DNA from: Neomelitea salexigens DSM 19753
GTDB lineage: Bacteria > Pseudomonadota > Gammaproteobacteria > Pseudomonadales > Spongiibacteraceae
DNA length: 64,000 bases
Direction of reading: 5' to 3'
NCBI RefSeq assembly: GCF_000422345.1
Contig: NZ_AULP01000002.1
Coordinates: 372,001 to 436,000, forward strand
Position numbers and translations under genes: made by a program. The notes beneath the pieces are model-generated. The model was not told the origin of the DNA, did not search any database, and worked only from the letters and a program-made list of their open reading frames with translations. Positions 26,401 to 49,168 of the stretch are shown piece by piece (the stretch's first letter is position 1; each line of letters begins with the position of its first letter).

Positions 26401-27177
26401 TTAACGGGCGGTATAGCCACCGTCCATAACCAGTTCCGAGCCGGTCATATAACTTGCCGCGTCGGAAAGCAAAAACACGATACCCTGAGCGATTTCCTCT
26501 GCCCGCGCCATGCGCCCCATCGGGATGCTGGCCACTACTCGCGTAGCGAAGGCATTGGCATCGTCCTCTGACAGTTTGGCCAGGGCACCGCTTACCAGAG
26601 GCGTTTCTACATAACCGGGATGAAGGGAGTTCACCCGAATACCGTAGTCACGATCAGCGCAATACAGCGCCAGCGACTTGGTCAGTGCGCGCACGGCGCC
26701 TTTGCTGGCGTTGTACGCTGGCAGCATTGGGTCGCCGACAATACCTTCAATCGACGACACATTGACGATCGACCCGCCGCGCGCTTTCATAGTCTGGATG
26801 GCCGCACGACTGCCGAGAAACACCGCGTCGCTATTAATGGTCTGGGTGCGCCGCCAACCCTCCAGACTTTCGTCCTCGGGGCCGCAAATTACCGCGATAC
26901 CCGCGTTATTCACGACGCCGTCCAGCTGACCGAAGCTGGCGACAACCGTTTCCATGCAATGCTGCCACTGCTGCTCGTCGCACACATCCAAGGGGAAGAA
27001 TTCCGCATCGGCGCCCTCCGCGCGCAGTGCCTCACACAGTTCTCGGCCAGCGTCCTGATCGATATCGCTCACCGCCAGCTTCGCCCCTGCCGCCGCCAGA
27101 GCATGGCACGCCGCCGCACCAATGCCTTTGGCGGCACCCGTGATCAACACCACTTTGTCTTTACAATGAATACTCAT
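26401..27177 (-). CDS. short-chain dehydrogenase/reductase (last gene of cluster)
   Basis: A 258-residue classical SDR with TGAAKGIG, VVNNAGIAV, the Ser in NVSSIEG and YNASK. DxD after the second strand (SDIDQDA) points to NAD. Start ATG at 27177 has AGGAGA about 8 bp upstream; a GTG one codon earlier is less likely. It ends the catabolic cluster and is followed by a terminator. It is 9 bp from the upstream SDR, so the two are co-transcribed paralogues. In the cluster context it may oxidise a hydroxyl on a ring or acyl-CoA intermediate; the substrate is unknown. Confidence 0.88.
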   Translation of the reverse strand: MSIHCKDKVVLITGAAKGIGAAACHALAAAGAKLAVSDIDQDAGRELCEALRAEGADAEFFPLDVCDEQQWQHCMETVVASFGQLDGVVNNAGIAVICGPEDESLEGWRRTQTINSDAVFLGSRAAIQTMKARGGSIVNVSSIEGIVGDPMLPAYNASKGAVRALTKSLALYCADRDYGIRVNSLHPGYVETPLVSGALAKLSEDDANAFATRVVASIPMGRMARAEEIAQGIVFLLSDAASYMTGSELVMDGGYTAR

Positions 27178-27186
27178 CACACTCTC

Positions 27187-28005
27187 CTATGCTGCGGTGA
27201 AACCGCCATCCACGGTCAGCTCAGCGCCACTGATATAGGCGCTGGCATCACTGGCAAGAAACAGCGCCGCATTGGCAATATCCTCGGCTGTGCCGAGCCG
27301 CCCCATCGGGATCATCTGCTGCTCCAATACCGCACTGGCTTCCTCGCGAGACTGGGTGAGCCCAACATCCACAAAGTCGTCGTAAACCTGTTCAGCCATA
27401 GCGGTATCGATCAAACCGGGGTGCAGCGAATTAACGCGAATGCCGTAACCAAAGCGGGCGAACTCGACCGCAGAATGCTTGCTGATAGAGCGCACCGAGC
27501 CCTTGGTTGCACCGTAAATGCTGTGGCCAGGGACGCCAATTAACCCGGCGATGGACGACAGATTTATAACGCTGCCACCGCGACCAAAGCAGCCGCTGGG
27601 CTGCATGGTTTCAGCCGCATAGCGCAGGCCGAGAAACACCGATTGCACATTGACCTCGTGGATACGGGTCAGTTGCTCTACCGAGTTGTCTTCCAGGCGA
27701 CCGCCAATGTAAATGCCAGCGTTGTTCACCAGAATATCCCAGCGGTTGTGCCACTGTTTCAACTCTGCCACCAAGGCCTGCCAGTCTTCCTCCAACACCA
27801 CATCTTGCTGAATAGCGCGCGCGTCAAAGCCCTGTTCATTCAGTTCCGCTGCCAAGCGCTGACAGGCGGCCACATCGATATCACTGAGCAGCACCGAGGC
27901 GCCCGAGTATGCCATGCGTTGGGCGCAGGCCTTGCCAATGCCCGCCGCCGCTCCGGTCACCACAGCGACTTTGCCCTGCAGCGAAAAAGGATTGTTCTCT
28001 TTCAT
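27187..28005 (-). CDS. short-chain dehydrogenase/reductase (first of tandem pair)
   Basis: A 272-residue classical SDR with TGAAAGIG, NNAGIY, Ser in NLSSIAG and YGATK. LLSDIDVAA favours NAD. It shares extended similarity with the next gene, including RVNSLHPG and a C-terminal SGAELTVDGG, which points to a local duplication followed by divergence. It contains an extra 14 or so residues around NSVEQLTRIHEVNV and MQPSGCFGRGG. Only 26 bp separate it from the reductase gene upstream. Confidence 0.88.
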   Translation of the reverse strand: MKENNPFSLQGKVAVVTGAAAGIGKACAQRMAYSGASVLLSDIDVAACQRLAAELNEQGFDARAIQQDVVLEEDWQALVAELKQWHNRWDILVNNAGIYIGGRLEDNSVEQLTRIHEVNVQSVFLGLRYAAETMQPSGCFGRGGSVINLSSIAGLIGVPGHSIYGATKGSVRSISKHSAVEFARFGYGIRVNSLHPGLIDTAMAEQVYDDFVDVGLTQSREEASAVLEQQMIPMGRLGTAEDIANAALFLASDASAYISGAELTVDGGFTAA

Positions 28006-28031
28006 TGTTATTTTCCGTTGTGTATTGAGGT

Positions 28032-29027
28032 TCAGCGCGCGGCGATATCCACTACGGCGCGGCCACGAATTTGTCCCTGCAAAATTTGCCCAGCGGCTTC
28101 AGGAAGGTTGTCGAAATCAATTTCAACCGCCATCGCTTCCAGTTTGTTCAGGTCGACAGACTCAGCCAAACGCTGCCAGGCGCGCTCACGCAGCGCCATT
28201 GGCGCGTGTACCGAGTCCACGCCCAGCAAGGCGACATTGCGCAGTGCAAAGGGCATCATGTTGCCGGGTAAGTCCAGGCCCTGGGCTAAGCCGCACGCGG
28301 CCACGGCGCCGTTGTAATGAAGTTGGGCAATAACGTTGGCCAGGGTATGGCTGCCACAGGAATCCACCGCCGCTGCCCAGCGGGGCGCCTGCATCATCTC
28401 ACCGGCTTCTGACAACTCGCGGCGATCGATCACGGAGTTTGCACCCAGGCTCTTTAAATATTCGCTTTCTTCAAGGCGGCCCGTCGACGCTGCCACGGTA
28501 TAGCCCAGGCCCGCCAACAACATAATGGACACGCTGCCCACTCCCCCCGACGCGCCGGTTACCAGCACTTCGCCCGACTCAGGGCTAATACCGAGCTGCT
28601 CCAGTCGCAGCAGAGACAACATCGCGGTGTAGCCCGCCGTACCCAGCAGCATGGCGTGGCGGGTAGTGAAAGCCTCAGGCACCTTCAACAGGTAGTCGCT
28701 CGAAATACGCAGGCGCTGGGTATAGCCGCCATTGTGCGTTTCTGAGGCGCCATAGCCATTCATCAGCACCTTGTCACCGACCTGAAAGCGGCTGCTCCCA
28801 GACTTAACCACAGTGCCTGCCATATCAATGCCGAGAATCAGCGAAGGCTTTTGAACAATGGGAATGGCGTCACTCATCGCCAGGCCATCTTTGTAGTTAA
28901 CGGTAGAGTATTCCACCGCTACCTCCACATCGCCGTCGCCAAGTTGCTCGCTGCTGAGCTGCTGAAATTCAACGCGGTAGCCACTGTCGTCGCGTACGCC
29001 AAGCAAGGCTTTGTATGTGTCTGTCAT
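28032..29027 (-). CDS. AcuI/YhdH-like zinc-free acryloyl-CoA (enoyl) reductase
   Basis: A 331-residue medium-chain dehydrogenase/reductase of the AcuI/YhdH type. The start KALLGVRDDSGYRVEF, the NYKDGLAMS motif and GIDMAGTV are diagnostic, with the NADPH site VTGASGGVGSVSIMLL. It lacks the zinc ligands of alcohol dehydrogenases. Characterised AcuI reduces acryloyl-CoA to propionyl-CoA with NADPH. In this cluster it may detoxify acryloyl-CoA or reduce another short enoyl-CoA released from the substrate (inference). AAGGA precedes the ATG. It lies 17 bp after the DUF1329 gene. Confidence 0.88.
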   Translation of the reverse strand: MTDTYKALLGVRDDSGYRVEFQQLSSEQLGDGDVEVAVEYSTVNYKDGLAMSDAIPIVQKPSLILGIDMAGTVVKSGSSRFQVGDKVLMNGYGASETHNGGYTQRLRISSDYLLKVPEAFTTRHAMLLGTAGYTAMLSLLRLEQLGISPESGEVLVTGASGGVGSVSIMLLAGLGYTVAASTGRLEESEYLKSLGANSVIDRRELSEAGEMMQAPRWAAAVDSCGSHTLANVIAQLHYNGAVAACGLAQGLDLPGNMMPFALRNVALLGVDSVHAPMALRERAWQRLAESVDLNKLEAMAVEIDFDNLPEAAGQILQGQIRGRAVVDIAAR

Positions 29028-29044
29028 GGTGAGTCCTTTTGTTG

Positions 29045-30421
29045 TTAGTTACCCAAGCGGCGCAGGGCACCGTTGGTTAAATAGCGGTTGTAAATATCGT
29101 GATCGTTCACCCGCATTCGGTGGCCGCCAGAGATTTCTGCCAGCTGTTCTATACGGGTCATTTTTCCGGTCTGCACATCGAAAGCGTGAACATGGCACCA
29201 CGACCAATAGGGGTGCTTACCGTCCATTACCCGGCGGTCGCCGTCCTCGTATAGCCCATAGGCACCATCGAAGGAACGGAATAGATCGCCGCGCCGGTCA
29301 AAGGTGACCATGCCCAGCGGCAACTGGGTGCGCGCATCAAACCACACCCGTTTAACGCCAACGGGTGCGCGCGGGAAGCCAGTGGGCTTGGCATCAACGG
29401 CAATGGCCTCTGGGACCAATTCCACGTCGGTATCCCAGAAGGTTTCTCCCTGTGGGCCGCCATGGGTGTTGTGCGACCAGTCTTCACTTTGCGAGGCCCA
29501 GCCACCGCTGACGGCGGCCAGCATGGGTCCGCGCCACACCACTTTGTAGTCGCCCCAGGTGTGCAGGGGGTCACCCGCCGCCCACGCGTCGGACAGGTAT
29601 AACGAGGAACCCGGTACCAACGGTTCAAAGCGCTGATCGGTGGGGAAGCGACGAATACGTTTAAAATCGGGAATATAGCCGTATAACTCGGGAAATTTGT
29701 TTTGGTCGTAGTGCCAAATATTCAAGAAAGACGTGCCGCGCACGCTGTCTGGCGCCGTGAAAAAGACACTCTGATAGCGCAGCTTGTCTTCGTGGCCCTT
29801 CCAGTAAACGCCGGGCAGTACCAAACGCCCCGTCGGCGCATATTCAGCCCAGCCATTTTCGTAGCCGTAGCTGACTTTGCCATCGCGGTTGAGGTCGTAT
29901 TCGCGGATCGCATAGAACGAAGCATCGTGTCGCCCCCAGCTTAACGTTAGGCCGGCAAAAAGCTCCACACCGGTCTTGGCATCGGGAAAGGGCAAGCCAC
30001 CAATCCAGGGTTTGCCGTCGGCCGTCACAACATTGCCATTGTCGTCAAAGCGCGCTTGGCCGCGGTGGCGAAAGCTCGCTTCCATATATTCCCATGGGCT
30101 CAGCTTCATCACATCGCGAGTGGTCTCACGCAATCTCAGGCGACGCCCCATGTCTTTGACTTGCATGTACTTCACCGGCTCGAGAAGGTCTTTTACCAGC
30201 TCGACATTACCGGCGTCGATCACATCACCGGCCTTGAGCTTGCCGCCGGTATATTGCTCTATCGACAGCAACTCCTCTGGATACGCCGCCGCATAATCAC
30301 CGTGTTTTTCCATTGCCGCCCAAGCCGGCATAAGCAGGCCCGCACCGACAAAACCTGAGCCTACACGCAAAAATTCACGCCGGGAAAACTGTCGGTCAAA
30401 CCGCCTGATATGAAAACTCAT
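29045..30421 (-). CDS. Tat-exported DUF1329 protein (copy 1)
   Basis: A 458-residue DUF1329 protein. The N terminus has a twin-arginine signal: SRREFLRVG, then a hydrophobic stretch GSGFVGAGLLMPAWA. The body carries DUF1329 features such as PEELLSIE, YMQVKDMGRRLRL, SFLNIWHYDQNKFPELYGYI and LYLSDAWAAGDP. I recall the family having a LolA/LolB-like fold, which would suit carrying a lipid-like molecule through the periplasm; this is inference. I chose the ATG at 30421 (GAGGA 8 bp upstream) because the longer reading frame would run back into a terminator. It is a paralogue of the protein at 33390-34769. Confidence 0.88.
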   Translation of the reverse strand: MSFHIRRFDRQFSRREFLRVGSGFVGAGLLMPAWAAMEKHGDYAAAYPEELLSIEQYTGGKLKAGDVIDAGNVELVKDLLEPVKYMQVKDMGRRLRLRETTRDVMKLSPWEYMEASFRHRGQARFDDNGNVVTADGKPWIGGLPFPDAKTGVELFAGLTLSWGRHDASFYAIREYDLNRDGKVSYGYENGWAEYAPTGRLVLPGVYWKGHEDKLRYQSVFFTAPDSVRGTSFLNIWHYDQNKFPELYGYIPDFKRIRRFPTDQRFEPLVPGSSLYLSDAWAAGDPLHTWGDYKVVWRGPMLAAVSGGWASQSEDWSHNTHGGPQGETFWDTDVELVPEAIAVDAKPTGFPRAPVGVKRVWFDARTQLPLGMVTFDRRGDLFRSFDGAYGLYEDGDRRVMDGKHPYWSWCHVHAFDVQTGKMTRIEQLAEISGGHRMRVNDHDIYNRYLTNGALRRLGN

Positions 30422-30437
30422 ACAACATCCTCGCGGT

Positions 30438-30464
30438 AAAAAAGCCGGCGACAAAGTCGCCGGC
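30438..30464 (-). terminator. intrinsic terminator inside the catabolic cluster
   Basis: GCCGGCGAC / GTCGCCGGC arms with a TTT loop are followed by TTTTTT on the minus strand. It lies after the DUF1302 gene and ends only 16 bp before the next start codon, leaving no room for a promoter between them. Readthrough may set the level of the downstream genes. Confidence 0.9.
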
Positions 30465-30502
30465 AAGGTCCCATTACTTCCTGAGGGTGGGGGTAGGGTT
30501 CG

Positions 30503-32419
30503 CTAGAATTGGTAGGCTACGCGCAGACCAAATTCATCGGCCCAGTCCACGGTTTGCATGATATTTTCATTCTCGTTGGCGCCATCAACGTAGCCGTCCA
30601 TGTGGTTGTAGAACATTTCTATGTTCCAGTTACCAGAGGGCTTCCATTTCAGTGCCGGCTGCACAAACAAGCCGCCGCGCGTGTCATACAACACCGACAA
30701 ATCTGCTCGCCATACCAAGCCAGGGAAGGGCTGCTGAAGGGCGAGTACCAGGCCGTTCCAGCCACCATCCACACCTTTAGGCGTGTTGTTGACCGTGCCG
30801 CCCATACCACTTAAGTGGCGGCCAAACAGATCGCTCTCACTGCGATGCATCCACTGGAAAACCATGTAGGTGGCAGGGAAGCTGCGGCTGAAGCGCTGAT
30901 ATTTTTCTAATACCAGAGCAGTCACGTATTCATCTTCAACAATGTATTCCTGCCCCAGGTCGATAGGGGTAAAGGTTTTATCCGGCGTGAAGGAAACCTC
31001 GAAGTTCAGAATCAACTGATCCGTCCAGCTGCCGGGCTCGCCACTGAATACATAGCTGATACCGGTGCCGAAAACATCCTCGCGGTGGTAGGTGCGCTCA
31101 ATGTGACCGCGCAGACCGCCGCCGCCCTGACCAGACAGCGGGTTATTCAGGAAACCACCCGTCAGGATGAAGAACAGATCGAGCTCTTCTTTTGCCGCAT
31201 CAATGCCCTGAACCGGCCGTGCCAACAGCAACTGCGATGCGGGGAAGTCGGTAACAATGTTGTTCAGACCTTCGGTGCCGTCGAGGCGCGCCATCCCCGC
31301 ATAGGTAAACCACTCCTCTGCACTCCATACCCCGGTGGGGTCCACTTCAAGCGGCGTTTCGGCAAGAATAGCACCGGAGCCGGGTAGGCCTGGAGCATCG
31401 CGGTTCACACCAGACTTAGTCCAGCGCACAACCCCGTCGGGGTTGTAGCGGTTGGTATACATAAACTGCAGACCAAAGTCGCCAAGAAAGCCTTTCAAGC
31501 GAAAACCGCTATTCACTTCTTCGTCAACACTGCTGTAGCGATCGTGCACGGTAAACTGTGAAGGGATCACGTTGTAGGGCGTGTTCGGGTTGCCGTAAAT
31601 GGTCGGCTGAAAGCTCTGCGCAAACATGTCCAGTTCCCAGTTGGAATTCAGCTGGTAGGACACGCGGATGGCTGGCGAGGCGATACGCTCATCGGCGTAC
31701 TCCTCGGAAGCGAAATCGAAGATCGAGTGACGGCGCAAATCCAAGCCGTTGGCCACGTCGAATACCCGGAAGAACAAGGCCTGCCCCCAGGCAATTTGCT
31801 GGTTACCGGCGCGCACTAATAGCGGCCCGTTCTGATAGTCCAGGTACAGCGACGGAAAGTCGACCATGTAGTTGTCGCCAGCGATCTCCAGCGGATTCTG
31901 TTCACCGCCGTTTTCAAAGTCGTCGTACTCGAAATAATTGGGTTCGCCATAGAGGTAACCCGCGGCGTTGCTGTTCACCGAGTCCGGATCAAATTCATCG
32001 TATTCGGCTGCGTCAAAGATGCCGCGCAGCTTTGCCGTCGCTGACCAGTTGTCACTAAACTTGAGCTGCAGGGTGCTCTCTAAACGCACCTGGCTGTGAT
32101 TAAAATCGTTGTCGGCCGGAACACCGTTGCGCGTCGCGGTATCCGAGATCGGCGCACTGATAGGAATGGGCAAATTCAGGCCGAGCAGCGTACCCACGTT
32201 GAGGCCACCGTTACGCTCAACCTCCTTGCCATTAAAGAGGTTACCGCGCTGGTTGTAGGGGTTTTCGTCACTTACCGTTTTGGCAGCCAGCTCTACACGA
32301 ATCAAACCACTAAGGCTGTAGTCGACACCCAGCAGCTCACCACTGGCCGACCACGATGGACTAGACAGTGCCATCGCCGTTGTGGCGAGAGCCCAATTAA
32401 GCCGATTATTATTTTTCAT
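30503..32419 (-). CDS. DUF1302 outer-membrane protein
   Basis: A 638-residue DUF1302 protein. The signal peptide ends near SPSWSA, then come beta-strand-rich segments with aromatic alternation such as LIRVELAAKTV, FNHSQVRLESTLQLKFSD and NWELDMFAQSFQP, ending DEFGLRVAYQF with terminal Phe, as in outer-membrane barrels. DUF1302 genes are usually found beside DUF1329 and RND/MMPL genes in bacteria that use hydrophobic compounds. It may be the outer-membrane channel for such a compound (inference). GGAGA precedes the ATG. It is followed by a strong terminator. Confidence 0.87.
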   Translation of the reverse strand: MKNNNRLNWALATTAMALSSPSWSASGELLGVDYSLSGLIRVELAAKTVSDENPYNQRGNLFNGKEVERNGGLNVGTLLGLNLPIPISAPISDTATRNGVPADNDFNHSQVRLESTLQLKFSDNWSATAKLRGIFDAAEYDEFDPDSVNSNAAGYLYGEPNYFEYDDFENGGEQNPLEIAGDNYMVDFPSLYLDYQNGPLLVRAGNQQIAWGQALFFRVFDVANGLDLRRHSIFDFASEEYADERIASPAIRVSYQLNSNWELDMFAQSFQPTIYGNPNTPYNVIPSQFTVHDRYSSVDEEVNSGFRLKGFLGDFGLQFMYTNRYNPDGVVRWTKSGVNRDAPGLPGSGAILAETPLEVDPTGVWSAEEWFTYAGMARLDGTEGLNNIVTDFPASQLLLARPVQGIDAAKEELDLFFILTGGFLNNPLSGQGGGGLRGHIERTYHREDVFGTGISYVFSGEPGSWTDQLILNFEVSFTPDKTFTPIDLGQEYIVEDEYVTALVLEKYQRFSRSFPATYMVFQWMHRSESDLFGRHLSGMGGTVNNTPKGVDGGWNGLVLALQQPFPGLVWRADLSVLYDTRGGLFVQPALKWKPSGNWNIEMFYNHMDGYVDGANENENIMQTVDWADEFGLRVAYQF

Positions 32420-32440
32420 CTCGCTTCTCCGAGGCTATTT

Positions 32441-33388
32441 TTAAAGAGAAATTTTGATCACTTTGGCTTGTTCACCGACGGCATAAAAAGCGTTACCGAG
32501 TACCGCGATATCGCTGTACCAGCTTTCTAAAAATGCGTCGTGATTCAGTACCCGCGCCTGACTGCTGGTCGGCGAAATACTCAAGGCCTGACGAATTCCC
32601 GTCGCCACCGCCTTGCCATCCGCGCGGATGGCAACATCCATTAAGATGGCGTCGCTATTACTGGTAATGGCTTTCCAGCTTTCGCCGCCATCCCTGCTGC
32701 GCAATACCGTTCCGCTCTGGCCAACCGCATAGGCCAAACCGGTATCGCTGAGGGCGAGGCCAAACAGCGACGCTTCGCCGCTGTGCAGCGACTGCCAGCT
32801 TTTCCCAGCGTCATCGGAGCGCGCGACCATGCCAAACTCACCGACAATGTAAATGCGACCGCGCGCATCTATTGCTGCGTTATACACATGTGGCTGATAG
32901 TTCTGGCCGATCAGCGCCGGCCAATCGATCTGTGACTGCTGCCAACTGCGACCACCGTCTTGTGAACACAGCACCGCACCAAAAGCACCAGTGGCGACCG
33001 CCAGACCGAAGTCTCCCTGAGCGACGGCAAACAAGCGCTCTTTCACCGGCGCCTCGATCGCCTTCCAGCCGTCGCCGGCATTGTGAAAAATGCCGCCCTG
33101 CTGGCCCACAGCCAACAGGTTGCCCTGGCGCTCCGACACCGCCAGTAGCGCGCGACTATCACCAACATTGCTGTTGCTCTGCCACTGGCTACCGTCGCGG
33201 CTCTGCCACAAGCGGCCATTGCTACCCACGGCAAGCAAGCCGTCACTGCTGGTATTCACGCCGAAAAGCACATCGTGGGGATGACCTCGGTGTACCTGTT
33301 CACTGCTGGCTGCGGCGGCGGGCATCGCCCCCGCCGTCAGCAGCAGCGCACAAACCCCCGCGGCAACGCGGTTCTTAACGCTAGCCAT
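32441..33388 (-). CDS. YCF48-like beta-propeller protein, exported
   Basis: A 315-residue protein with a signal peptide (AGVCALLLTAGAMPAAAA) and repeated BNR/YCF48 motifs: SRDGSQWQ, SQDGGRSWQ, SDDAGKSWQ and SRDGGESWK at roughly 45-residue steps, giving a beta propeller in the periplasm. YCF48/HCF136 helps assemble photosystem II in cyanobacteria and plastids; in heterotrophs such proteins are regular partners of DUF1302/DUF1329/RND genes and their role is unknown. GGGAGG precedes the ATG at 33388; the longer frame would overlap the DUF1329 gene. One base separates it from that gene. Confidence 0.87.
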   Translation of the reverse strand: MASVKNRVAAGVCALLLTAGAMPAAAASSEQVHRGHPHDVLFGVNTSSDGLLAVGSNGRLWQSRDGSQWQSNSNVGDSRALLAVSERQGNLLAVGQQGGIFHNAGDGWKAIEAPVKERLFAVAQGDFGLAVATGAFGAVLCSQDGGRSWQQSQIDWPALIGQNYQPHVYNAAIDARGRIYIVGEFGMVARSDDAGKSWQSLHSGEASLFGLALSDTGLAYAVGQSGTVLRSRDGGESWKAITSNSDAILMDVAIRADGKAVATGIRQALSISPTSSQARVLNHDAFLESWYSDIAVLGNAFYAVGEQAKVIKISL

Positions 33389-33389
33389 A

Positions 33390-34769
33390 TCAGCCTCCCA
33401 GGCGCTGCATCGCTTGCACGGTGAGGTACTTGTTGTACACGTCGACATCGCCGGGATTGAAGTTGGTCTTGTAACCGCCCGTTACGCCCTTGGCCTGTAC
33501 AAAACGGCTCATGCGGTTGGACTGCACGTCGTGGCTGTGAACACTGGACCAAGACCACGCGGGGTTGGCGCCGTCCATATTGGTCATCTTGTCGTTCGAC
33601 TGCTGCGCGTAATGCGGCTCAAACGACTTCCAGATTTCACCGCGACGGTCGTAGGTCACATAGGCGACATACATTTGGTTGCGCACATCGATCCATACAC
33701 GGCGCTTACCCACGGGCGCACGCGCATAGCCGGTTGGCTCCGACTCCAGCACGATGCACTCCGGCACCAGTTCCATGTAGGTGTCGAAGAAGGTCTGATC
33801 TTTAGGGCCACCGTGCACGGGTTTTTCCCAGTTGTCGTGATGGCCACCGTGGAAATTGCGCGGACCGATGCAACCCAGCATTGGCTGGCGACCGACAATT
33901 TTGTAGTTGCCCCAGGTTTGCAGCGGGTCACCGGCCGCCCAGGCATCTGACAGGAACAGAGTGATACCCGGTACCAGCGGCTCAAAACGCTGGTTAGTGG
34001 GGAACTGCCTTACCCGGCGGAAAGCGGGGATATAACCGTGCAGTTCTGGGAATTTACGCTGATCGTAATGCCAAATGTTCAGGAACGAGGTACCGGCACT
34101 GTCGTTGGGCGCGGTGAAGAATACCGACTGGTAGCGCAGCAGGTCTTCTTTGCCCTTCCAAACCTGACCGTCGGCACGTGACGTAGTATTCAGCTCACTC
34201 CATACAAAGTCGTACTGGTAAGACAGACTGCCGTTGTTGTCGATATCCCAGTCGCGCACTGCGTACTGCGACCAGTCGTGACGACCCCAGCTCATCGTTA
34301 GGTTGTACTGCGCCTCAACACCATTCTTGGGCTCGGGGAAGGGGTTACCGCCGATCCAGGGCTTGCCGTCTTTCGTCCACACGTTGCCGTCGCTGTCCAG
34401 CACTGCCTTACCCTTATTGCGCAGGGTGGCCTCGAGGTATTCAGCGGGGTAGAGCTGCGTAATATCTTTTACCGGTTCAACAATGTGAATACGGCGACCC
34501 ATGGTTTTTACTTGCATATACGCAACGGGGTCGAGCAAGTGCTTCACATGTTCAACGTTATCGGCGGTAATCACATCGCCCGGTTTGATCTTGCCTTTGG
34601 TTTGCATCTCGATAGACAGCAGTTCATCGGGATAGGCCTTACTCATGTCAGCGCCGTTGGCGATCAGTGGCCACAGCGGCGCAATCACGCCCGCTGCACC
34701 AATACCTTTAACGGTTTTTTCCAGGAAACTGCGACGGCTAAAGTCAGTATCGTATTTTTTAATATGCAT
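33390..34769 (-). CDS. Tat-exported DUF1329 protein (copy 2)
   Basis: A 459-residue DUF1329 protein. A twin-arginine motif SRRSFLEK is followed by a hydrophobic segment GIGAAGVIAPLWPLIANGA. It shares with copy 1 the segments PDELLSIE, YMQVKTMGRRIHI, SFLNIWHYDQRKFPELHGYI and FLSDAWAAGDPLQTWG, so the two are clear paralogues. GGAGG lies before the ATG. The gene sits between the RND transporter (59 bp) and the YCF48 gene (1 bp), so it belongs to that transport unit. It probably acts in the periplasm or at the outer membrane. Tat export implies it is folded before export, perhaps with a cofactor. Confidence 0.9.
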   Translation of the reverse strand: MHIKKYDTDFSRRSFLEKTVKGIGAAGVIAPLWPLIANGADMSKAYPDELLSIEMQTKGKIKPGDVITADNVEHVKHLLDPVAYMQVKTMGRRIHIVEPVKDITQLYPAEYLEATLRNKGKAVLDSDGNVWTKDGKPWIGGNPFPEPKNGVEAQYNLTMSWGRHDWSQYAVRDWDIDNNGSLSYQYDFVWSELNTTSRADGQVWKGKEDLLRYQSVFFTAPNDSAGTSFLNIWHYDQRKFPELHGYIPAFRRVRQFPTNQRFEPLVPGITLFLSDAWAAGDPLQTWGNYKIVGRQPMLGCIGPRNFHGGHHDNWEKPVHGGPKDQTFFDTYMELVPECIVLESEPTGYARAPVGKRRVWIDVRNQMYVAYVTYDRRGEIWKSFEPHYAQQSNDKMTNMDGANPAWSWSSVHSHDVQSNRMSRFVQAKGVTGGYKTNFNPGDVDVYNKYLTVQAMQRLGG

Positions 34770-34828
34770 CGTTTACCTCCGGGGGGAACCCTTGATTATC
34801 TTTTTATTGATTGTCGGTCAGCTCAGGC

Positions 34829-37288
34829 TCAGCTGACCGCCTCGGCCCTGATTGCAGCGCGTTGCTGAACGGCTGCGCGCTCGTCTTCTTCTAAAAGTTT
34901 GCTAATGTCCATACCCTCGCCCAAGACCAGAATGTCTTTGCTGGACACGAATTTCGGCTTCATTACCCACACCAACAACGGCAGCACCACCAATGCGATC
35001 ACCATGTTGATCAGCATCACCAGCACCAGTAGCAAGCCCATGTCGGCCAGGAATTTCAGGCCGGATAGGAAGTACCAGGGAAGAATGCCCAGCAGCATGA
35101 TGCTGGCAGTGAACATAATGGCCTTACCGGTAGTGGTCAGCGCGGAGGTGATGGCCACGCCATAGTCCTCACACTCGTGATATTCCTCACAGATACGACT
35201 GAGCAGATAGATGCCGTAATCGATACCCACACCGACACCAATGGCAGCAACCATCAGCGAGTTGATGTCCAGACCAATGCCCATGAACGACATGCTGGTG
35301 GTCAAAATCATGTTGGACAGGTTAACCGGGATCAGCAGCACCACACCGGCAACCACCGAGTGATAGGCATAGCTCGACACTGCCAAAATGACCAGGTTGA
35401 GCAAACCCATAATCAACCAGTGATAACGCTCTACCACATGGTTAATGGCCTGCTGGATAGCGATGGTGCCGCTGCCGAGGCGCACAGTGAAAGCGTCGTG
35501 GTCTGCACCCACTTGCTCCACGGCCGCCCGCGCGGCCGCCAGCGCGTTGTCGACGGTGTCTTGTTTGTTATCGGCATACCAAAAGGACACAGTGGAGTTT
35601 TGCAATTCAAAGTCCACGACATTCGAGAACGCTTTGGGGCTGGTTCCCATCAGTACTGCCGACGCCGCAGCGTTAGCAGCTCGGTCGTTATTGTCCAGCG
35701 GCAACCACTTGCTGTGGCCACCGGAGATCAGCCGGTTGGCATCCATTAAGTAGTCGGCAAAAGACAGCGTCGCCCGCGGCGCGTGCTCGCCCGACTCCAT
35801 AATCGATTGCAGCTGCAACATCGTTGCCACCGCATCGGCTTGTTTGGCCACGCGATCGCTACCGCTGTCGCCCTTCGCCTCCAGGATCACTTCGAGCGTA
35901 TTCACACCGGGGAAGTGATTATTGATCTGGGCCACCGATACGTTGTACTCGGAGTCCTCCCACAACAGGTTGCTGCCCTCCACCGGGTTACCGATCTGGA
36001 TACGCATCGAGTGGTACAGCGAGAACACACCCACCGCGATCACCACAATCATGGTGTAGGGAGCAATACGACCTTGGGACAAGCGGGAAATACTGGCTAG
36101 TGCTGCTTTCACCTTGCCGTGGAAACCACCGGAATGATCGCTGACAATCTTTTTCAAGTTGCGCGGCTCAGGCAGCACTGACAGCAACAGCGGTGCAAGA
36201 AATACCCCAGTCGGCGCTAACATCATTGCCCAGAAACCGCAGAACAGCGCGAAGCGTTCCATTGCCGGAATCGGTGCGATAGAAATCAGGAAGATACCCG
36301 CTGCGTCGGTGATAATGCCCAGAATAGATGGCGCCATCATCACGCTGGTTGTTAAACCTGCGGCTTTTACCTTGTCGCCGAGTTGATCGAAAATTTCATA
36401 GAAACGCTCGGTGAACTGTACGCAGTGACTAAACGATCGCGCGATCAACAGCAGCGGCACAATCATCAACAATGGCTCGATCGGCATCTTCATCCAACCG
36501 GCAAAACCAAAACCCCAAATCGCGGCAACAATACTGGCAAATATCGGTGTAACAACGCCGGCCATGTTCTGCGTATAGAGCACCAGGGCGATGACCAATG
36601 CACTTAGAGTAATGGCGAAAATACCAATCATTTGATGCTGGTATTCATAGACCCAACCGGTCAGCGCTGGCTGGCCCGCCATGTAGACATCGTGATTTGC
36701 ATCCGTCGCATCATCGGCCAGTTTTTTAACAAAAGCGAAGGCCTCACCGTAGTCCAGGCGCTGCTCAATAAATGTTGCTGTCACCAATGTTGCAGTTTCG
36801 TCTTCTGAAATAAGAAACCGGCGTGCATTCGGCGACTTGCGAACATTGTCTTTAAATTGCTGCACTTCTTCGGGCGTTGCCGGTACCGAATCCCCCATCA
36901 AAGGTTGGGCATCAATACCGAAAGGCGTCGCCTCTGCGTAGCGCGCTTTTGCCGATGCAATCGATAGTATCTGGTCGTGATCCACCCCCGGCGACAAGTC
37001 AATGTCGCGAGTGAGATCCCAGACTTTCGACAGCGTTTCAGCATTGTATATATCGCCGTTTTTATTCTTCACCATCAAGGTGAATGTCAGTGGATTACCG
37101 AAATTCGGATGGTCCTTAAAAACATGAATAAACGGATCGTCCTTGGGAAGCAGGTCTGAAAAAATGGTTTCTAAACGAACATTTTTCAAACCGGCGGCAA
37201 AGAACAGGGTAATTGCGAGAAACAATATCGAAGCAATTATTCGGTGCTCAAGCACCGCCATTGCAATTCGGCCTCTTATATTATTCAT
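34829..37288 (-). CDS. RND superfamily (MMPL-type) transporter
   Basis: An 819-residue transporter of the RND/MMPL type with two repeated halves: one helix near residue 15, a periplasmic loop (about 35-220), five helices (about 225-395), a second helix near 410, a second loop (about 430-610) and a last five-helix block (about 625-780). The second block contains GIGLDINSLMVAAIGVGVGI, with the polar and Asp residues of the proton relay. It resembles exporters that move lipids or hydrophobic molecules (HpnN, MmpL), not tripartite drug pumps, and no adaptor protein is encoded nearby. AAGGA lies before the ATG. A 169-bp gap upstream holds the 17-bp shared element. Confidence 0.9.
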   Translation of the reverse strand: MNNIRGRIAMAVLEHRIIASILFLAITLFFAAGLKNVRLETIFSDLLPKDDPFIHVFKDHPNFGNPLTFTLMVKNKNGDIYNAETLSKVWDLTRDIDLSPGVDHDQILSIASAKARYAEATPFGIDAQPLMGDSVPATPEEVQQFKDNVRKSPNARRFLISEDETATLVTATFIEQRLDYGEAFAFVKKLADDATDANHDVYMAGQPALTGWVYEYQHQMIGIFAITLSALVIALVLYTQNMAGVVTPIFASIVAAIWGFGFAGWMKMPIEPLLMIVPLLLIARSFSHCVQFTERFYEIFDQLGDKVKAAGLTTSVMMAPSILGIITDAAGIFLISIAPIPAMERFALFCGFWAMMLAPTGVFLAPLLLSVLPEPRNLKKIVSDHSGGFHGKVKAALASISRLSQGRIAPYTMIVVIAVGVFSLYHSMRIQIGNPVEGSNLLWEDSEYNVSVAQINNHFPGVNTLEVILEAKGDSGSDRVAKQADAVATMLQLQSIMESGEHAPRATLSFADYLMDANRLISGGHSKWLPLDNNDRAANAAASAVLMGTSPKAFSNVVDFELQNSTVSFWYADNKQDTVDNALAAARAAVEQVGADHDAFTVRLGSGTIAIQQAINHVVERYHWLIMGLLNLVILAVSSYAYHSVVAGVVLLIPVNLSNMILTTSMSFMGIGLDINSLMVAAIGVGVGIDYGIYLLSRICEEYHECEDYGVAITSALTTTGKAIMFTASIMLLGILPWYFLSGLKFLADMGLLLVLVMLINMVIALVVLPLLVWVMKPKFVSSKDILVLGEGMDISKLLEEDERAAVQQRAAIRAEAVS

Positions 37289-37431
37289 CTTGCCGGTCCT
37301 TCAAGATCGCGGAAAATTAGTCATTAATTTTCCCGCGTATTATTTTTTTTAACGTATCAACGAGAACGTGATTAGCAGTCAGATTAATCGCTTATTAAAA
37401 GGCCGGTAATGCCTATTCCCGACCCTTTTTC

Positions 37432-37448
37432 TGTTAATTTACGACAGC
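37432..37448. promoter_or_regulatory. 17-bp element, copy A (upstream of RND operon)
   Basis: The sequence tgttaatttacgacagc, 144 bp upstream of the RND start codon, is repeated exactly at 41763-41779, upstream of the acyl-CoA dehydrogenase operon. A shared operator for the AraC-type regulator is the simplest reading. A weak -10-like TAATAA lies at 37392-37397. Confidence 0.6.
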
Positions 37449-37457
37449 CTTTTCCGG

Positions 37458-39062
37458 CTATGACGCGAAGTCATAAACATGATTTTTTTGCTCTTGGAAA
37501 AGCTGATAACAGAAGCGCGCCTGCGGTTTTTCGGATGCGGTTTTCGGTATTTCTGACATGACCTGGATGTAGCTCGGCAGCTCTGTTCTGCCCAGCACGG
37601 CCCGACAGTGATCGAGCAGTTTTTGCGGGCTGAACAAACACACATCCACCGGCACTACCGCAGCGATAACATCTTTCTCGCCGGGCACACCGTTGGTAGC
37701 GGGAATACCATAGACAAAAACATCGGCAACATCGGGATACTCGGCAATAGTTTTTTCAATCTTTGCAGTATCGATGAATTCGCCATTGCGGCGAATTTCA
37801 TCACCTTTGCGACTGTCGAAGTAAAACCATCCGTCCTCATCACGGTGGCCAATGTCACCGGTAAAGAACACGCCGTTTTGTACTTTCTTTGCCGATGCTT
37901 CTGGGTTTTTGAAATAGCTTACGGCCAGTGTGGGTTGCCCTGGCGCCGCCTCGAACACAATTTCTCCGCGCTCATTCGGGGCACATTCGCGGCCGTCTTC
38001 ATCGACGACTTTGGCAATCAAACTGGCAGGGGGCTTACCGATACTGCCGATGGGTCCACCCGGTGGATTAAAGGTCATACCCCCTTCGGCGGCGCCGTAA
38101 AACTCGAACAGCTCAACGTCAAAACGCTGTTTGAAATCTTCCCATATCGCGGCGGGCATACCCGCACTGAGAATATAGCGAACCGGGTTATCGGCATCGT
38201 CGGCTTTGCGCGGCTCACTGTATATTGCCGTGGTCATGCCGCCGAGCAGGTTGAACATGGTACAGCCGTAGTGGCGGCAAATATCCCATAAACGGGATTT
38301 ACTAAACTTGCGGCTAATGACCCCGCGCAGACCCATTTTCAATACATTGCCCAGAGTGACCAGTTGCGCGTTAGCGTGGGTTAGCGACAGGCCGGTGTAG
38401 GGGCGGTCCTCACTTTGCAAACCGATCGCGGGCCCAATTGATGCCACATTGTCAAAGCGTGTATATGGCGCGCGTATCGCTTTTGGGTCGCCGGTGGTGC
38501 CTGAGGTATACAGCATTTGCATCACCTCGTCGGCGCTCTCTACCCGACAGGCGCGCTCTTCATAGGGACCGGAAATCACGTCGCTGTATCGTGCAACGCG
38601 CTCGTCAGCCGATTGCAGGCTAACCTTCTCGCCGGTGTCCATCACCCAGATCCAGCGGATCTGCGGCATGTCCTTACACACCTGGTAGACGCTGTTAAAA
38701 CAGTAGTCTGCACAGACCACGCCCGAGCACTCGGCCCAGCTCAGCATATAGCGCAAACGGTCGCCGCCGGTGCGCGGGTCGATAGGCACGTAAACTGTAC
38801 CCGCCAGGGAGCTGCCGACCATGCAGTCAATAAATTCCGGGTGGTTTTGCATCACTAACGCGAAGCTACTACCGCGCTCCATGTTCTGCTCCAGCAAAGC
38901 CTGGTTGACTCGCTGCCCTTGCTCCCACAAATCGCGGTAGCTTCGCTTTTCATCTTCAAAGCCACCACAGGGTTTGATGTTTACAAATGTCAGCACGTCC
39001 AGATCGGGCTGTTGCTGCATTTTCGCCTCAATTAAATTGGCGAATATTCGTTGATCTTTCAT
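37458..39062 (-). CDS. acyl-CoA ligase (AMP-forming), CaiC-like
   Basis: A 534-residue member of the ANL superfamily that activates a carboxylic acid to its CoA thioester. It has the ATP motif YTSGTTGDPKAIR, the A5 motif YGAAEGGMTF, the Asp of FTGDIGHRDEDGW, the KGDEIRRNGEFI hinge and a C-terminal Lys in TASEKPQARF that should serve the adenylation step. The overall type resembles crotonobetaine/carnitine-CoA ligase-like enzymes. I chose the ATG at 39062 with GGGGA upstream over a TTG four codons earlier. It is third in the acd-thiolase-ligase operon, 17 bp after the thiolase gene. The substrate is unknown. Confidence 0.88.
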   Translation of the reverse strand: MKDQRIFANLIEAKMQQQPDLDVLTFVNIKPCGGFEDEKRSYRDLWEQGQRVNQALLEQNMERGSSFALVMQNHPEFIDCMVGSSLAGTVYVPIDPRTGGDRLRYMLSWAECSGVVCADYCFNSVYQVCKDMPQIRWIWVMDTGEKVSLQSADERVARYSDVISGPYEERACRVESADEVMQMLYTSGTTGDPKAIRAPYTRFDNVASIGPAIGLQSEDRPYTGLSLTHANAQLVTLGNVLKMGLRGVISRKFSKSRLWDICRHYGCTMFNLLGGMTTAIYSEPRKADDADNPVRYILSAGMPAAIWEDFKQRFDVELFEFYGAAEGGMTFNPPGGPIGSIGKPPASLIAKVVDEDGRECAPNERGEIVFEAAPGQPTLAVSYFKNPEASAKKVQNGVFFTGDIGHRDEDGWFYFDSRKGDEIRRNGEFIDTAKIEKTIAEYPDVADVFVYGIPATNGVPGEKDVIAAVVPVDVCLFSPQKLLDHCRAVLGRTELPSYIQVMSEIPKTASEKPQARFCYQLFQEQKNHVYDFAS

Positions 39063-39079
39063 GGTGTCCCCCAACAGTC

Positions 39080-40315
39080 TTATTCTTTGGACAATATGCT
39101 TAACACCAGCGCAGCAGCGTCGCTGCCAATGAAGCCGCCGCCGTTTTCAGCCAGAGCATGCTTCGCGCCGTTAACTTGTCGGTCTCCCGCCTCGCCACGC
39201 AGTTGTGTTACCAACTCGACGATTTGGGCGGCACCGGTGGCGCCAATCGGGTGACCCTTGCGCATTAATCCACCCGAGGTATTCACCGGCACGCTACCGC
39301 CCAACGTGGATTCACCGCGAGCGACAAAGTCGCCGCCTTCACCTTCTGCACACAGGCCGAGGTATTCGTAGTATTTAATTTCAGAGATCGCCGAGGCATC
39401 GTGCAGCTCTACGCAGTCGATATCGTCGGCGCCGATGCCCGCTTGCTGATAAATGGCTTCTGCGGCCTGCGGCACCATTTCCGGCTCGTCGTCAACGCGG
39501 TCCCAACCACTGTGCAGAGAGGAGGCGCGTACGCGCACGCAGCGCGACATACCCAGCTCTCGCGCTTTCTTTTCACTCACCATGACCAGCGCCGCCGCGC
39601 CATCGCCAATGGGCGCGCACATTGGCAGGGTCAATGGGTCGACAATCGCACGCGCCGACAAGACGTCTTCGGCCGTAATACGGTGGCGAAATTGGGAGAG
39701 CGGGTTGATGCTGCCGTGAATGGAGTTCTTCGCCGACACCGCCGCCAGTTGTTCACGGGTGGTGCCATACTGGTGCATATGTTCACGCGCCCAGGTGGCG
39801 TAAATATCGATAAATAACGATCGACTGATACCAGCCTGGCTCATATCGAGGTCCATACCGATGGCGGCATTGCGCGCTTGCAGGCTTTCTCGAATACTGT
39901 CCATCTGGTCGATATCCACCGCGCCGGTAAATACCGAGAAGGTTTTTTCTTTGTCTTGGTGATAAAGCTTTTCGTAGCCGCACACCAACACCACATCGTA
40001 GACGCCGAGGCTGATCATGGTGGCCGCTTGCTGAAAGGCCGTTGCCGAGGTGGCACAGGCATTTTCAACATTGATGACGGGAATGCGGCCAATGCCCATG
40101 TTGCGTAGCACCACCTGGCCTGGCACACAGACTTGGCCGGTAATGACCGCCGCCGCGCCATTTCCCATGTAGGCGGCATTCAACTCAGAGGCTTCTATAT
40201 CAGCATCGCGCAGCGCCTGCTGAATAGCGGCGCCAGCGAGCTGACTCAAACTTTGGTCAATAGCATTCCCAAAGGGCGTCATTCCGACGCCCGCAATATA
40301 GGCTTTTTGTTCCAC
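39080..40315 (-). CDS. thiolase (SCP-x/lipid-transfer type acetyl-CoA acetyltransferase)
   Basis: A 411-residue thiolase. The nucleophile Cys is in VENACATSA, the active-site His in KGHPIGATG; ELHDASAISE is typical. The C-terminal Cys of biosynthetic thiolases (CxG) is replaced in HALAENGGGF, as in SCP-x-type thiolases that act on branched or ring-bearing substrates such as steroid side chains. It may therefore cleave a bulky 3-ketoacyl-CoA. The start codon is GTG with GGAGA upstream. It lies 13 bp after the acyl-CoA dehydrogenase gene and 17 bp before the ligase gene. Confidence 0.87.
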   Translation of the reverse strand: MEQKAYIAGVGMTPFGNAIDQSLSQLAGAAIQQALRDADIEASELNAAYMGNGAAAVITGQVCVPGQVVLRNMGIGRIPVINVENACATSATAFQQAATMISLGVYDVVLVCGYEKLYHQDKEKTFSVFTGAVDIDQMDSIRESLQARNAAIGMDLDMSQAGISRSLFIDIYATWAREHMHQYGTTREQLAAVSAKNSIHGSINPLSQFRHRITAEDVLSARAIVDPLTLPMCAPIGDGAAALVMVSEKKARELGMSRCVRVRASSLHSGWDRVDDEPEMVPQAAEAIYQQAGIGADDIDCVELHDASAISEIKYYEYLGLCAEGEGGDFVARGESTLGGSVPVNTSGGLMRKGHPIGATGAAQIVELVTQLRGEAGDRQVNGAKHALAENGGGFIGSDAAALVLSILSKE

Positions 40316-40328
40316 GGGTTTCTCCGGC

Positions 40329-41657
40329 TTAGTTGCCCAGTTTTTCTTCGTCGATCAAGTAGCTGCCGCCCTTAATAGCCAGGACTTCGTTACAGCCGTC
40401 TTCAATCATTGATGCGCGGGCATCGCGGAGCATTTTTTCCATCGGGTACTCGCGAGTCAGGCCATTGCCTCCGAATATTTGCAGCGCATCGCTGCACACC
40501 TCAAAGGCCTGTTGTGTGCCGGTGGTTTTCGAGAACATGGCTGAACACAGCGAGGGAATCGCCGTTGCCGGGTCGTTGTTGTAGTCGAGGGCACGACGCG
40601 TCACTGCGCGCGAGGTCTCCACCTTGCGGAACATATGGAAGAGGCGGCTTTTCACCGATTGGTGATGAATAATTTGCGTGCCACCGGCAACGCGTTCGTG
40701 AGCGTAGTCCAGTGCCATGTCTGCGGCCGCCTGCGCCAAGCCGGTGAAGGTGGCCCCCATCAGTGCGTTGGCTTCAGCGTGAATGCAGTACACGGCGCGC
40801 TGGTAATCTTCAGGACCGGCCAGCAAATATTTGCGCGGCAGTCGAACATTGTCGAAGAAAATTTCACCTTGGTTCAGCGCGCGCTGCCCCATTTTATCCA
40901 GCGGTTTGCCGCGGGAGATGCCCGGCAGGTTCATTGGGAAAACCAACACGCAGCCATTGTGCGGGTCAACACCGTTACCGCTGTCGGCCGCGCAGTACAA
41001 AATACAAACGTCGGCGATCACGCCGTTGGAAACCCAAGCCGCTTTCTGGCCGTTCAAAATAATGTCGTCGCCCGTCAAATCTGCAACCAGGTTCGGGCGG
41101 CCGTACTTGCCACCCGGCTGAGCGGCAGCGCCGTTGGGGTCGAGCATGTCTGAACCGTGGTCGGGTTCGGTAATACCCCAGCAGCCAAGCATCGCGTCGG
41201 GGAATTCTTCCAGTAGGTCAGCGCGACCAAATTTGGCTGACAGCCACTGCGGCAAAATTCCGGCGCCCACAGAAATCGCCAGACCGGCGTCGCCATAGCC
41301 CAGTTCTTCAAACAGAATGCTAAACAGCAGGGCGGCCTCGCGCGGCGGCATTTCAGAAAGGGCTTCAATCGTTACGCCCAGCTCCAAGTACTTCTCGCGG
41401 AATTCCCAAAAACGCGAATCCTTGGCAATCACCTCTTCCGGGCTCAGCTTATCGAGTTCAATACCAATGGGGCGCACCACGTTAATCGCAAAGTCGCGCA
41501 GGGTTTGTTGGAATTCAGCAATATGTTCGGGCAAGCTCGCCTCGGCACCTGAGATGGTCAGCTTGCTTTTGGGGGTAGCCGGCCAGCGGTAAAGAGGGGC
41601 TTCTAAGTTGCGGTAGTCAACATCCACAGGGCCTGTGGCAAGAGCGGTATCGTTCAT
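40329..41657 (-). CDS. acyl-CoA dehydrogenase
   Basis: A 442-residue FAD-dependent dehydrogenase. Visible features are CWGITEPDHGSDM (the FAD/substrate signature), VSNGVIADVCILY, the FGGNGLTREYPMEKMLRDARA motif and MIEDGCNEV, whose Glu fits the catalytic base. The N terminus is longer than usual and starts MNDTALATGPVDVDYRNLEAPLYRWP. It is the first gene of the acd-thiolase-ligase operon, divergent from the AraC gene. AGAGGA lies before the ATG. It should oxidise the acyl-CoA made by the ligase at 37458-39062 to the enoyl-CoA. Confidence 0.88.
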   Translation of the reverse strand: MNDTALATGPVDVDYRNLEAPLYRWPATPKSKLTISGAEASLPEHIAEFQQTLRDFAINVVRPIGIELDKLSPEEVIAKDSRFWEFREKYLELGVTIEALSEMPPREAALLFSILFEELGYGDAGLAISVGAGILPQWLSAKFGRADLLEEFPDAMLGCWGITEPDHGSDMLDPNGAAAQPGGKYGRPNLVADLTGDDIILNGQKAAWVSNGVIADVCILYCAADSGNGVDPHNGCVLVFPMNLPGISRGKPLDKMGQRALNQGEIFFDNVRLPRKYLLAGPEDYQRAVYCIHAEANALMGATFTGLAQAAADMALDYAHERVAGGTQIIHHQSVKSRLFHMFRKVETSRAVTRRALDYNNDPATAIPSLCSAMFSKTTGTQQAFEVCSDALQIFGGNGLTREYPMEKMLRDARASMIEDGCNEVLAIKGGSYLIDEEKLGN

Positions 41658-41711: not shown

Positions 41712-41740
41712 ATAGTAGCCAGCGCCCCGGCAAAGTTAGA
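41712..41740 (-). promoter_or_regulatory. possible activator-dependent promoter of the acd operon
   Basis: On the minus strand TACTAT (41712-41717) stands 17 bp from TCTAAC (41735-41740), a poor -35 box. A weak -35 beside the 17-bp element fits AraC-type activation. This is a guess from spacing only. Confidence 0.35.
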
Positions 41741-41762
41741 TGTTTACAGCAGACAATCTGGT

Positions 41763-41779
41763 TGTTAATTTACGACAGC
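41763..41779. promoter_or_regulatory. 17-bp element, copy B (between acd and araC genes)
   Basis: An exact second copy of tgttaatttacgacagc. It lies 24 bp before the chosen AraC start and about 23 bp upstream of the predicted acd -35 box, so it could serve autoregulation and activation together. Confidence 0.6.
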
Positions 41780-41802
41780 AATTTTCAGCGCGTGACGTGT
41801 TC

Positions 41803-43892: not shown

Positions 43893-43997
43893 TTCAGACG
43901 AGAGCATCACTTAATTAACGTAATTAGCGACGCAAATCGCCGCCCAGGCGGCGTGGCCAAGTACTCACTGAAAAACAAAAATTACAGGAGCAAGACC

Positions 43998-48802: not shown

Positions 48803-49168
48803 TGCTATTCTCCAGTACAACAATTGGACGGTCGGTACAGACAGCCACAGCATCGCGACGCCAAATTAGCGATACTCTGTGTTGAGGCTGAAAACGCGGC
48901 TGCGTCATTGGACTCGTCCTTGATTTATATGAGGGCGTGTAACGTGGCTGATCTCTGGCTTCCCTTCCGTCGACAACCGCTTGCGCACTAAAATCACACA
49001 GGGGCAATATTTAGCAGCGCACTAAATATTTATAGCCGATGGCCTATCCATTGACAAGCAAGTCCTAAAAAACGTGGGGCAAGCCGGTTTTCAATCAAGC
49101 TCGAACACCCCATGCTGCACAGGTACCCGTCAGGCGTAGTAGCCGAGCGCCAACCAACAGGAGAGTCT
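48803..49168. other. 366-bp intergenic region
   Basis: No gene can be supported here. On the minus strand a plausible sigma-70 promoter (TTGTCA at 49052-49057, 17-bp spacer, TATAAA at 49029-49034) would give the lipoprotein mRNA a leader of over 200 nt. A 10-bp direct repeat gcgcactaaa occurs at 48983-48992 and 49017-49026. A TTGACA on the plus strand at 49051-49056 lacks a matching -10 box. CAGGAGAG at 49159-49165 is the ribosome site of the next gene. Confidence 0.55.

Follow-up and report, generated by a model that had tools for sequence, protein, structure and literature searches.

How hydrophobic substrates and toxic intermediates cross the two membranes of Gram-negative bacteria is poorly understood. 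A set of DUF1302, DUF1329, YCF48 and RND proteins turns up repeatedly in hydrocarbon degraders as a candidate for this task and is little characterised. In Castellaniella defragrans such a four-component set, AmeABCD, has been studied with a deletion mutant and a dye-accumulation assay; without the ame genes, cells tolerate monoterpenes less well and, when de-energised, accumulate more Nile Red (PMC6394551). Operons of COG4447, COG1033, PF07044 and DUF1302 genes belong to the AphS, AphR and AphT regulons, with predicted catabolic co-regulation and a suggested role in coping with toxic aromatics (PMC6449761). In Pseudomonas putida, use of Tween 20 requires the genes PP_0765, PP_0766, PP_2018 and PP_2019, which were proposed to encode a transport system; co-folding gave weak predicted contacts of DUF1329 with both RND and DUF1302 (PMC10866462). 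DUF1302 and DUF1329 genes also occur beside phenol-hydroxylase genes (PMC7012976), both proteins were found in Delftia nanopods (PMC3110197), and a "Nanopod" cluster with DUF1329, YCF48 and MMPL was expressed in a benzene culture or consortium (PMC13101534). Here we analyse a locus with these families in Neomelitea salexigens DSM 19753. It lies in a window of 64,000 nucleotides (contig NZ_AULP01000002.1, positions 372,001 to 436,000) of a 3.44 Mb genome in 21 contigs.

The locus is a run of eleven genes, all on the minus strand, that spans positions 26401-41657 of the window; Pfam and NCBIfam profile matches give a clear family for each (Table 1). Read from 41657 to 26401, the genes encode an acyl-coenzyme A (CoA) dehydrogenase, a thiolase, a CoA ligase, an RND transporter, a first DUF1329 protein (DUF1329a), a YCF48 propeller, a DUF1302 barrel, a second DUF1329 protein (DUF1329b), a reductase and two SDR oxidoreductases (SDR1 and SDR2). 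This one-strand run had been described in an initial annotation, and all eleven genes are present. The same annotation called the system possibly undescribed and knew no biochemical model for it, and on both counts the literature says otherwise: the four-component set is that of AmeABCD, which has its deletion mutant and dye assay (PMC6394551), of the aromatic regulons (PMC6449761), and of the P. putida genes, with co-folding and Tween 20 fitness data (PMC10866462). The four-family set is already known, and its form with two carriers marked for twin-arginine translocation (Tat) is a variant.

We read the locus as an AmeABCD-like envelope cassette, in a five-gene variant with two carriers, set on a catabolic operon for a hydrophobic acid or hydrocarbon-derived compound and serving as an accessory relay for hydrophobes (probability roughly 0.48). 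A proton-driven RND protein in the inner membrane would exchange a hydrophobic substrate or intermediate with DUF1329a, two Tat-exported carriers of LolA fold would pass the cargo across the periplasm, and the OprD-like DUF1302 barrel would move it through the outer membrane. The propeller may be a docking or assembly factor. Outward flow would keep a toxic load from building up in the inner membrane during catabolism.

The cassette is genetically tied to the enzymes. Of 18 sampled genomes of the genus, 11 carry a ligase orthologue (at least 70% identity), at 12 places in all, and the copy in the metagenome-assembled genome G573 has an in-frame TGA. An RND gene of the window type (at least 82% identity) occurs at 10 places in nine of these 11 genomes, each time beside the ligase orthologue, and in none of the seven genomes that lack the orthologue. 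Among the window-type loci in relatives (L081-L089 and L091, four of which coincide with places L022-L025), all 14 genes are present in eight of ten; the two others are truncated, L089 at the contig edge and L091 at the edge of the stretch examined. Locus L090 has an RND cassette that is 77% identical, with other neighbours. Relatives of the ligase, thiolase and acyl-CoA dehydrogenase also lie upstream of RND in eight of 19 loci found through DUF1329a: four loci of the same genus (three genomes), Azoarcus sp. Aa7, Aromatoleum toluolicum, a Rhodocyclaceae metagenome-assembled genome and Ideonella. The last four have a DUF5938 relative inside the block, and in Ideonella the enzymes and RND are about 3 kb apart, with a LuxR-type gene in the interval. 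The other 11 loci are without this enzyme block, and some of them are short contigs. A chance neighbourhood of unrelated transporter and enzyme genes agrees with the genomes G572 and G576, which hold the enzymes without the cassette, and with cassettes that have other neighbours. It is nonetheless very improbable against the ten of ten places beside the ligase, the absence of a window-type RND from the seven genomes without it, and the recurrence of the pairing in Rhodocyclales and Ideonella.

The cassette also recurs as a set of its own. The genome encodes four DUF1329 and two DUF1302 proteins, which make up two complete five-gene cassettes, both in the order RND-1329a-YCF48-1302-1329b. The neighbours of the second (L021, contig C8) are an AMP ligase, an enoyl-CoA hydratase, a polyhydroxyalkanoate (PHA)-synthase-like gene, a PHA-depolymerase-like gene, an aldehyde dehydrogenase and a PF10118 gene. 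A class-level sample of 185 genomes gave 69 DUF1329 matches of 100 bits or more. Forty of these have a DUF1302 match of 66 bits or more no farther than 5 kb away, in 38 cases on the same strand. The second cassette and this proximity indicate that the run is more than chance. The initial annotation had made its proposal depend on conserved linkage in other genomes, and such linkage is found, both for the DUF1329-DUF1302 pair and for enzymes with cassette in the genus, Rhodocyclales and Ideonella. Distance matrices of the five components correlate at r 0.82-0.97 across 19 chosen cassettes, with none of 500 permutations as high for any pair, and much of this correlation comes from shared ancestry alone.

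Neighbours vary from cassette to cassette. The four families occur together in five of the six plasmid regions examined, beside AlkB and rubredoxins, phenol hydroxylase or beta-oxidation genes; the sixth, from P. veronii, has just YCF48 and RND in two open reading frame (ORF) pieces, and its stretch ends with the record. On the Methylibium petroleiphilum PM1 plasmid an alkane 1-monooxygenase gene is followed, after rubredoxin genes and a distance of about 9 kb or more, by two inverted five-gene cassettes. In the second PM1 cassette (L041:26415-29563) the DUF1302 gene is split by an IS3-family transposase gene. Within the genus, one Tat-type cassette (L093:13035-14303) adjoins a cytochrome P450 and an AMP ligase; another (L032:3817-21377) is beside aldehyde dehydrogenase, FAA hydrolase, acetaldehyde dehydrogenase and ferredoxin-reductase-like genes. 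The unlike neighbours of these two suggest a separate substrate for each cassette.

Two genomes have lost the cassette. In G572 and G576 the five cassette genes are gone, and full-length ORFs remain for SDR2, SDR1, the reductase, ligase, thiolase and dehydrogenase, both AraC genes and DUF5938. The scar in G572 is decayed: a broken RND start (about codons 1-138) runs directly into the last 80 or so codons of DUF1329b. The site in G576 is down to 212 bases, in which a remnant of the DUF1329b end is recognisable over 102 bases (about 70%). No DUF1302 gene was found in the G572 assembly; G576 retains a cassette of the C8 type (L093). In each of the seven enzyme genes compared, an intact genome (G581 or G587) resembles G572 more closely than G576 does. 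Given the different scars and this relationship, the two losses are probably independent events. Between G572 and G581, the ratio of nonsynonymous to synonymous substitution rates (dN/dS) is 0.014-0.065 in six of seven enzyme genes, and the ligase is saturated.

The cassette behaves as a single unit of five genes, and its loss leaves the enzymes useful. Full-length enzyme genes with low dN/dS, where computable, after loss of the cassette make it an accessory rather than an obligatory feed line. The proposal that an envelope system feeds the CoA enzymes survives in part: an envelope-spanning, hydrophobe-handling set is genetically tied to these enzymes, but it is not a necessary route of supply. 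G572 and G576 are natural cassette deletions with intact enzymes, and a comparison of strains could address direction and substrate.

Persistence of the enzymes fits either a tolerance device or a conditional aid to uptake. Known RND, LolA and hopanoid (HpnN) systems work outward. This background, the Ame mutant phenotype and the survival of the enzymes give us a slight preference, little better than even, for net flow outward rather than inward. The opposite direction is a real possibility that we hold somewhat doubtful. As an accessory uptake route, DUF1302 would admit a poorly soluble substrate, the carriers would bring it to RND, and RND would insert it into the inner membrane, feeding the CoA ligase; such a route would matter when the substrate is scarce or insoluble, and hence could be lost. 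NPC2, which hands sterol to NPC1, offers an analogy, and the RND profile also matches NPC1-type proteins. That paralogous cassettes of one genome adjoin unlike catabolic genes likewise favours uptake. Against it stand the outward direction of the known systems, the enzymes that survive without the cassette, and the one direct experiment on a homologue in the literature examined, which points to efflux (PMC6394551).

Several points weigh against an outward two-carrier relay. The first concern direction. The predicted fold of DUF1302 is nearest to the OprD/Occ porins, which are uptake channels, and the structure model is of moderate confidence. The tight catabolic linkage suits uptake, as does the Tween 20 dependence in P. 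putida (PMC10866462), and in the Ame study the mutant and the wild type hardly differed in real-time efflux of Nile Red (PMC6394551). Others concern the parts. The top NCBIfam match of RND is HAE3 (TIGR00921), at 147 bits, below the curated cut-off of 351.9. Strong DUF1329 matches lack a DUF1302 match inside 5 kb in 29 of 69 cases, some of which may be due to fragmented contigs. Four Rhodocyclales and Ideonella loci have single-carrier cassettes within the stretch examined (L040 is cut inside its stretch), G210 has two RND-1329a-YCF48-1302 sets with a lone b-type gene elsewhere, and in L054 and L057 a carrier is found about 8-9 kb beyond DUF1302. Lastly, the synonymous rate is saturated in many of the pairs used for dN/dS.

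The carriers are what set this variant apart. DUF1329a and DUF1329b both bear a twin-arginine (SRRxFL) motif, and Pfam DUF1329 matches the two genes with E-values of 2.8e-66 and 1.5e-50. An SRRxFLK-like motif ahead of a hydrophobic stretch, together with TatC in the same genome, has the sequence features of a Tat substrate, from which we infer export by Tat. A motif of the RRx[F/L] type lies within the first 70 residues in 38 of 40 Tat-clade DUF1329 ORFs; of the two misses, one is cut at a contig end and one was started too far upstream, its printed sequence ending YGRR. A second, partly overlapping Tat-clade set has the motif in 47 of 47, six of them with a first pattern match that falls upstream of the start and an SRRRFM motif still visible. 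Ordinary DUF1329 ORFs have it in 0 of 36, even when the whole stretch ahead of the domain is searched; most have Sec-like signals at the start, and L069, which begins MRRRFY, is a near miss. By these counts, the Tat motif, as read from sequence, is a clade feature of the LolA-fold carriers.

The two carriers are paralogues. Forty-eight Tat-type DUF1329 genes in 13 genomes (of 38 relatives) form 24 a/b pairs, matched by eye from coordinates, with 23 on the same strand and one divergent. In a tree, the b-type proteins form one clade (support 92/95), and the a-type lie on one side with weak support (50/28), so the case for an ancient separate group holds for b only. At E<=1e-60, the Tat-type profile is found in 2 of 398 Pseudomonadota genomes, this genome counted, and in 12 of 18 genomes of the genus. 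A stricter form of the relay, in which both carriers fold in the cytoplasm, possibly around the ligand, leave it in folded form and work one after the other, with a docked to RND and b to DUF1302, and in which the five-protein cartridge is gained or lost as one and takes its cargo from the enzyme block, seems unlikely. If true, such a relay, with paired Tat-using LolA-fold carriers that cannot replace one another, would add a new mechanism for moving hydrophobes across the periplasm.

Residues 148-458 of DUF1329a have a LolA-type fold when the predicted structure is compared with the solved structures of LolA, LolB and LolA3, and the modelled fold places the protein in the LolA superfamily. 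This fold would also suit a set whose task, during growth on hydrocarbons, is to reshape outer-membrane lipids or nanopods rather than to carry the substrate itself, as would the DUF1302 and DUF1329 proteins of Delftia nanopods (PMC3110197) and the "Nanopod" cluster of the benzene culture (PMC13101534). We consider such an envelope or vesicle function improbable: in the genus sample, window-type cassettes occur only with the enzyme block of the window, and a general envelope role predicts otherwise. A DxDxDG calcium loop in DUF1329 (DIDNNG and DLNRDG in the window) was dropped, as the aspartates are not conserved over 42 rows, one of which is a gap there. Two DUF1329 proteins of about 860 amino acids (L047:8131-10725, minus strand; L049:6677-9250, plus strand) have a fused N-terminal TPR region.

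The RND protein has SHxxQ at residues 287-291, in a helix of its N-half, and DY at 690-691, by motif alignment. MmpL3 has DY in both aligned halves; in cassette RND proteins SHxxQ replaces the N-half DY and the C-half DY is kept. All but one of 41 aligned RND proteins have SHxxQ. The exception, L049, is the lowest full-length scorer, and no YCF48 or DUF1302 was found in its stretch. As a unique signature the motif of transmembrane helix 4 is weakened, because another RND protein of the genome (a partial ORF, L009) likewise lacks the N-half DY and has IH; asymmetric halves are not peculiar to the cassette. No match to a membrane-fusion-protein family was found among the eleven proteins of the run. 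The propeller evolves much faster than its neighbours. Its dN/dS is 0.06-0.11, compared with 0.009-0.036 for the other computable genes (three intact pairs, DUF1329b not among them). Across the ten window-type cassettes (32441-33388 and relatives L081-L088 and L091), its mean identity is 65%, and that of the other ten genes 78-89%.

The enzyme profiles make no choice among steroids, terpenoids, alkanes and alicyclic acids as the substrate of the ligase, thiolase, dehydrogenase and SDR proteins. The top NCBIfam match of the thiolase is PRK08256 (313 bits, cut-off 436), and its matches, the best 25 of 53, are under the curated cut-offs; so are those of the ligase (best 25 of 96) and all 17 of the acyl-CoA dehydrogenase. 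For the SDR proteins, a broad "glucose 1-dehydrogenase" subfamily model is the only one passed among the best 25 matches listed. The reductase scores 431.8 bits for AcuI, below the equivalog cut-off of 440, and 397.5 bits for the broader family TIGR02823, above its cut-off of 297.25.

Table 1. Genes of the catabolic and envelope run and conserved neighbours, in window coordinates.
Feature	Coordinates	Strand	Basis
Acyl-CoA dehydrogenase, 442 aa, first gene of run	40329..41657	-	Pfam Acyl-CoA_dh_1/M
SCPx / lipid-transfer-protein type thiolase, 411 aa	39080..40315	-	Pfam Thiolase_C_1
AMP-binding acyl-CoA ligase, 538 aa	37458..39074	-	Pfam AMP-binding, E 2.3e-49
RND/MMPL transporter, HAE3-like, 819 aa	34829..37288	-	Pfam MMPL, E 3.4e-21
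DUF1329a, twin-arginine LolA-fold putative periplasmic carrier; gene adjoins RND	33390..34769	-	
YCF48/BNR-type propeller, Sec-like signal	32441..33388	-	Pfam PSII_BNR/YCF48, E 8e-13
DUF1302 outer-membrane barrel, 638 aa, C-terminal Phe	30503..32419	-	Pfam DUF1302, E 2.9e-30
DUF1329b, second twin-arginine carrier	29045..30421	-	Pfam DUF1329; Tat motif; separate paralogue clade
AcuI/YhdH-family enoyl-CoA reductase (MDR)	28032..29027	-	NCBIfam AcuI, TIGR02823
SDR oxidoreductase 1	27187..28005	-	Pfam adh_short_C2
SDR oxidoreductase 2	26401..27180	-	Pfam adh_short_C2
AraC-type regulator, divergent	41740..42843	+	Pfam Arabinose_bd + HTH_18; conserved with block
Second AraC-type regulator	42816..43823	-	Pfam; conserved with block
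Saccharopine-dehydrogenase-like DUF5938 protein	43953..45110	+	Pfam; synteny

Two starts differ from the ORF calls. The propeller likely starts at the ATG at 33388, since the ORF called from 33448 overlaps DUF1329a, and for DUF1329b the ATG at 30421 is the most likely start, rather than the TTG at 30466. The 169-base gap between ligase and RND (37289-37457) lies inside a stretch of lower GC content; it is a possible internal promoter that would divide the enzymes from the cassette. Beyond the run, a 362-amino-acid protein (45242-46330) is encoded beside an 816-amino-acid lipoprotein-like protein that contains Gly/Ser (46403-48853), on the minus strand; no Pfam or NCBIfam model matches either of them at the thresholds used.

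The locus offers a tractable model for this type of system, with a Tat-marked two-carrier subtype and several paralogous cassettes that have unlike enzyme neighbours in one genus. DUF1329a shares its fold with LolA, LolB and LolA3 and differs from the Lol system in about 105 extra mature N-terminal residues, the Tat motif, and an adjoining RND gene where Lol has LolCDE. No description of a Tat-type DUF1329 pair was found in the accessible portions of the full-text literature on DUF1302 and DUF1329. The regulon operons have the same four families; they belong to aromatic catabolism regulons, and no Tat or two-carrier feature was seen in the available part of that report (PMC6449761). The P. putida set is similar in that DUF1302, DUF1329, a periplasmic protein and an efflux-type transporter act together; unlike the window, its genes form two separate pairs by locus number, with one DUF1329 named and a role on Tween 20 (PMC10866462). 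AmeABCD, compared by description, also combines DUF1302, DUF1329/LolA, a COG4447 propeller and RND (HAE3 in Ame) beside genes for hydrophobe catabolism. It has one DUF1329 gene, and its lineage is described as keeping this composition and the order A-B-C-D; the window has two DUF1329 genes, both with the Tat motif. The enzymes differ, and the gene order is 1302-1329-COG4447-RND in Ame and RND-1329a-YCF48-1302-1329b here. With this order (D-B-C-A-B') and two DUF1329 genes, the locus is best regarded, on the published description of Ame, as a variant that is Ame-like in its working rather than a member of the Ame lineage (PMC6394551).

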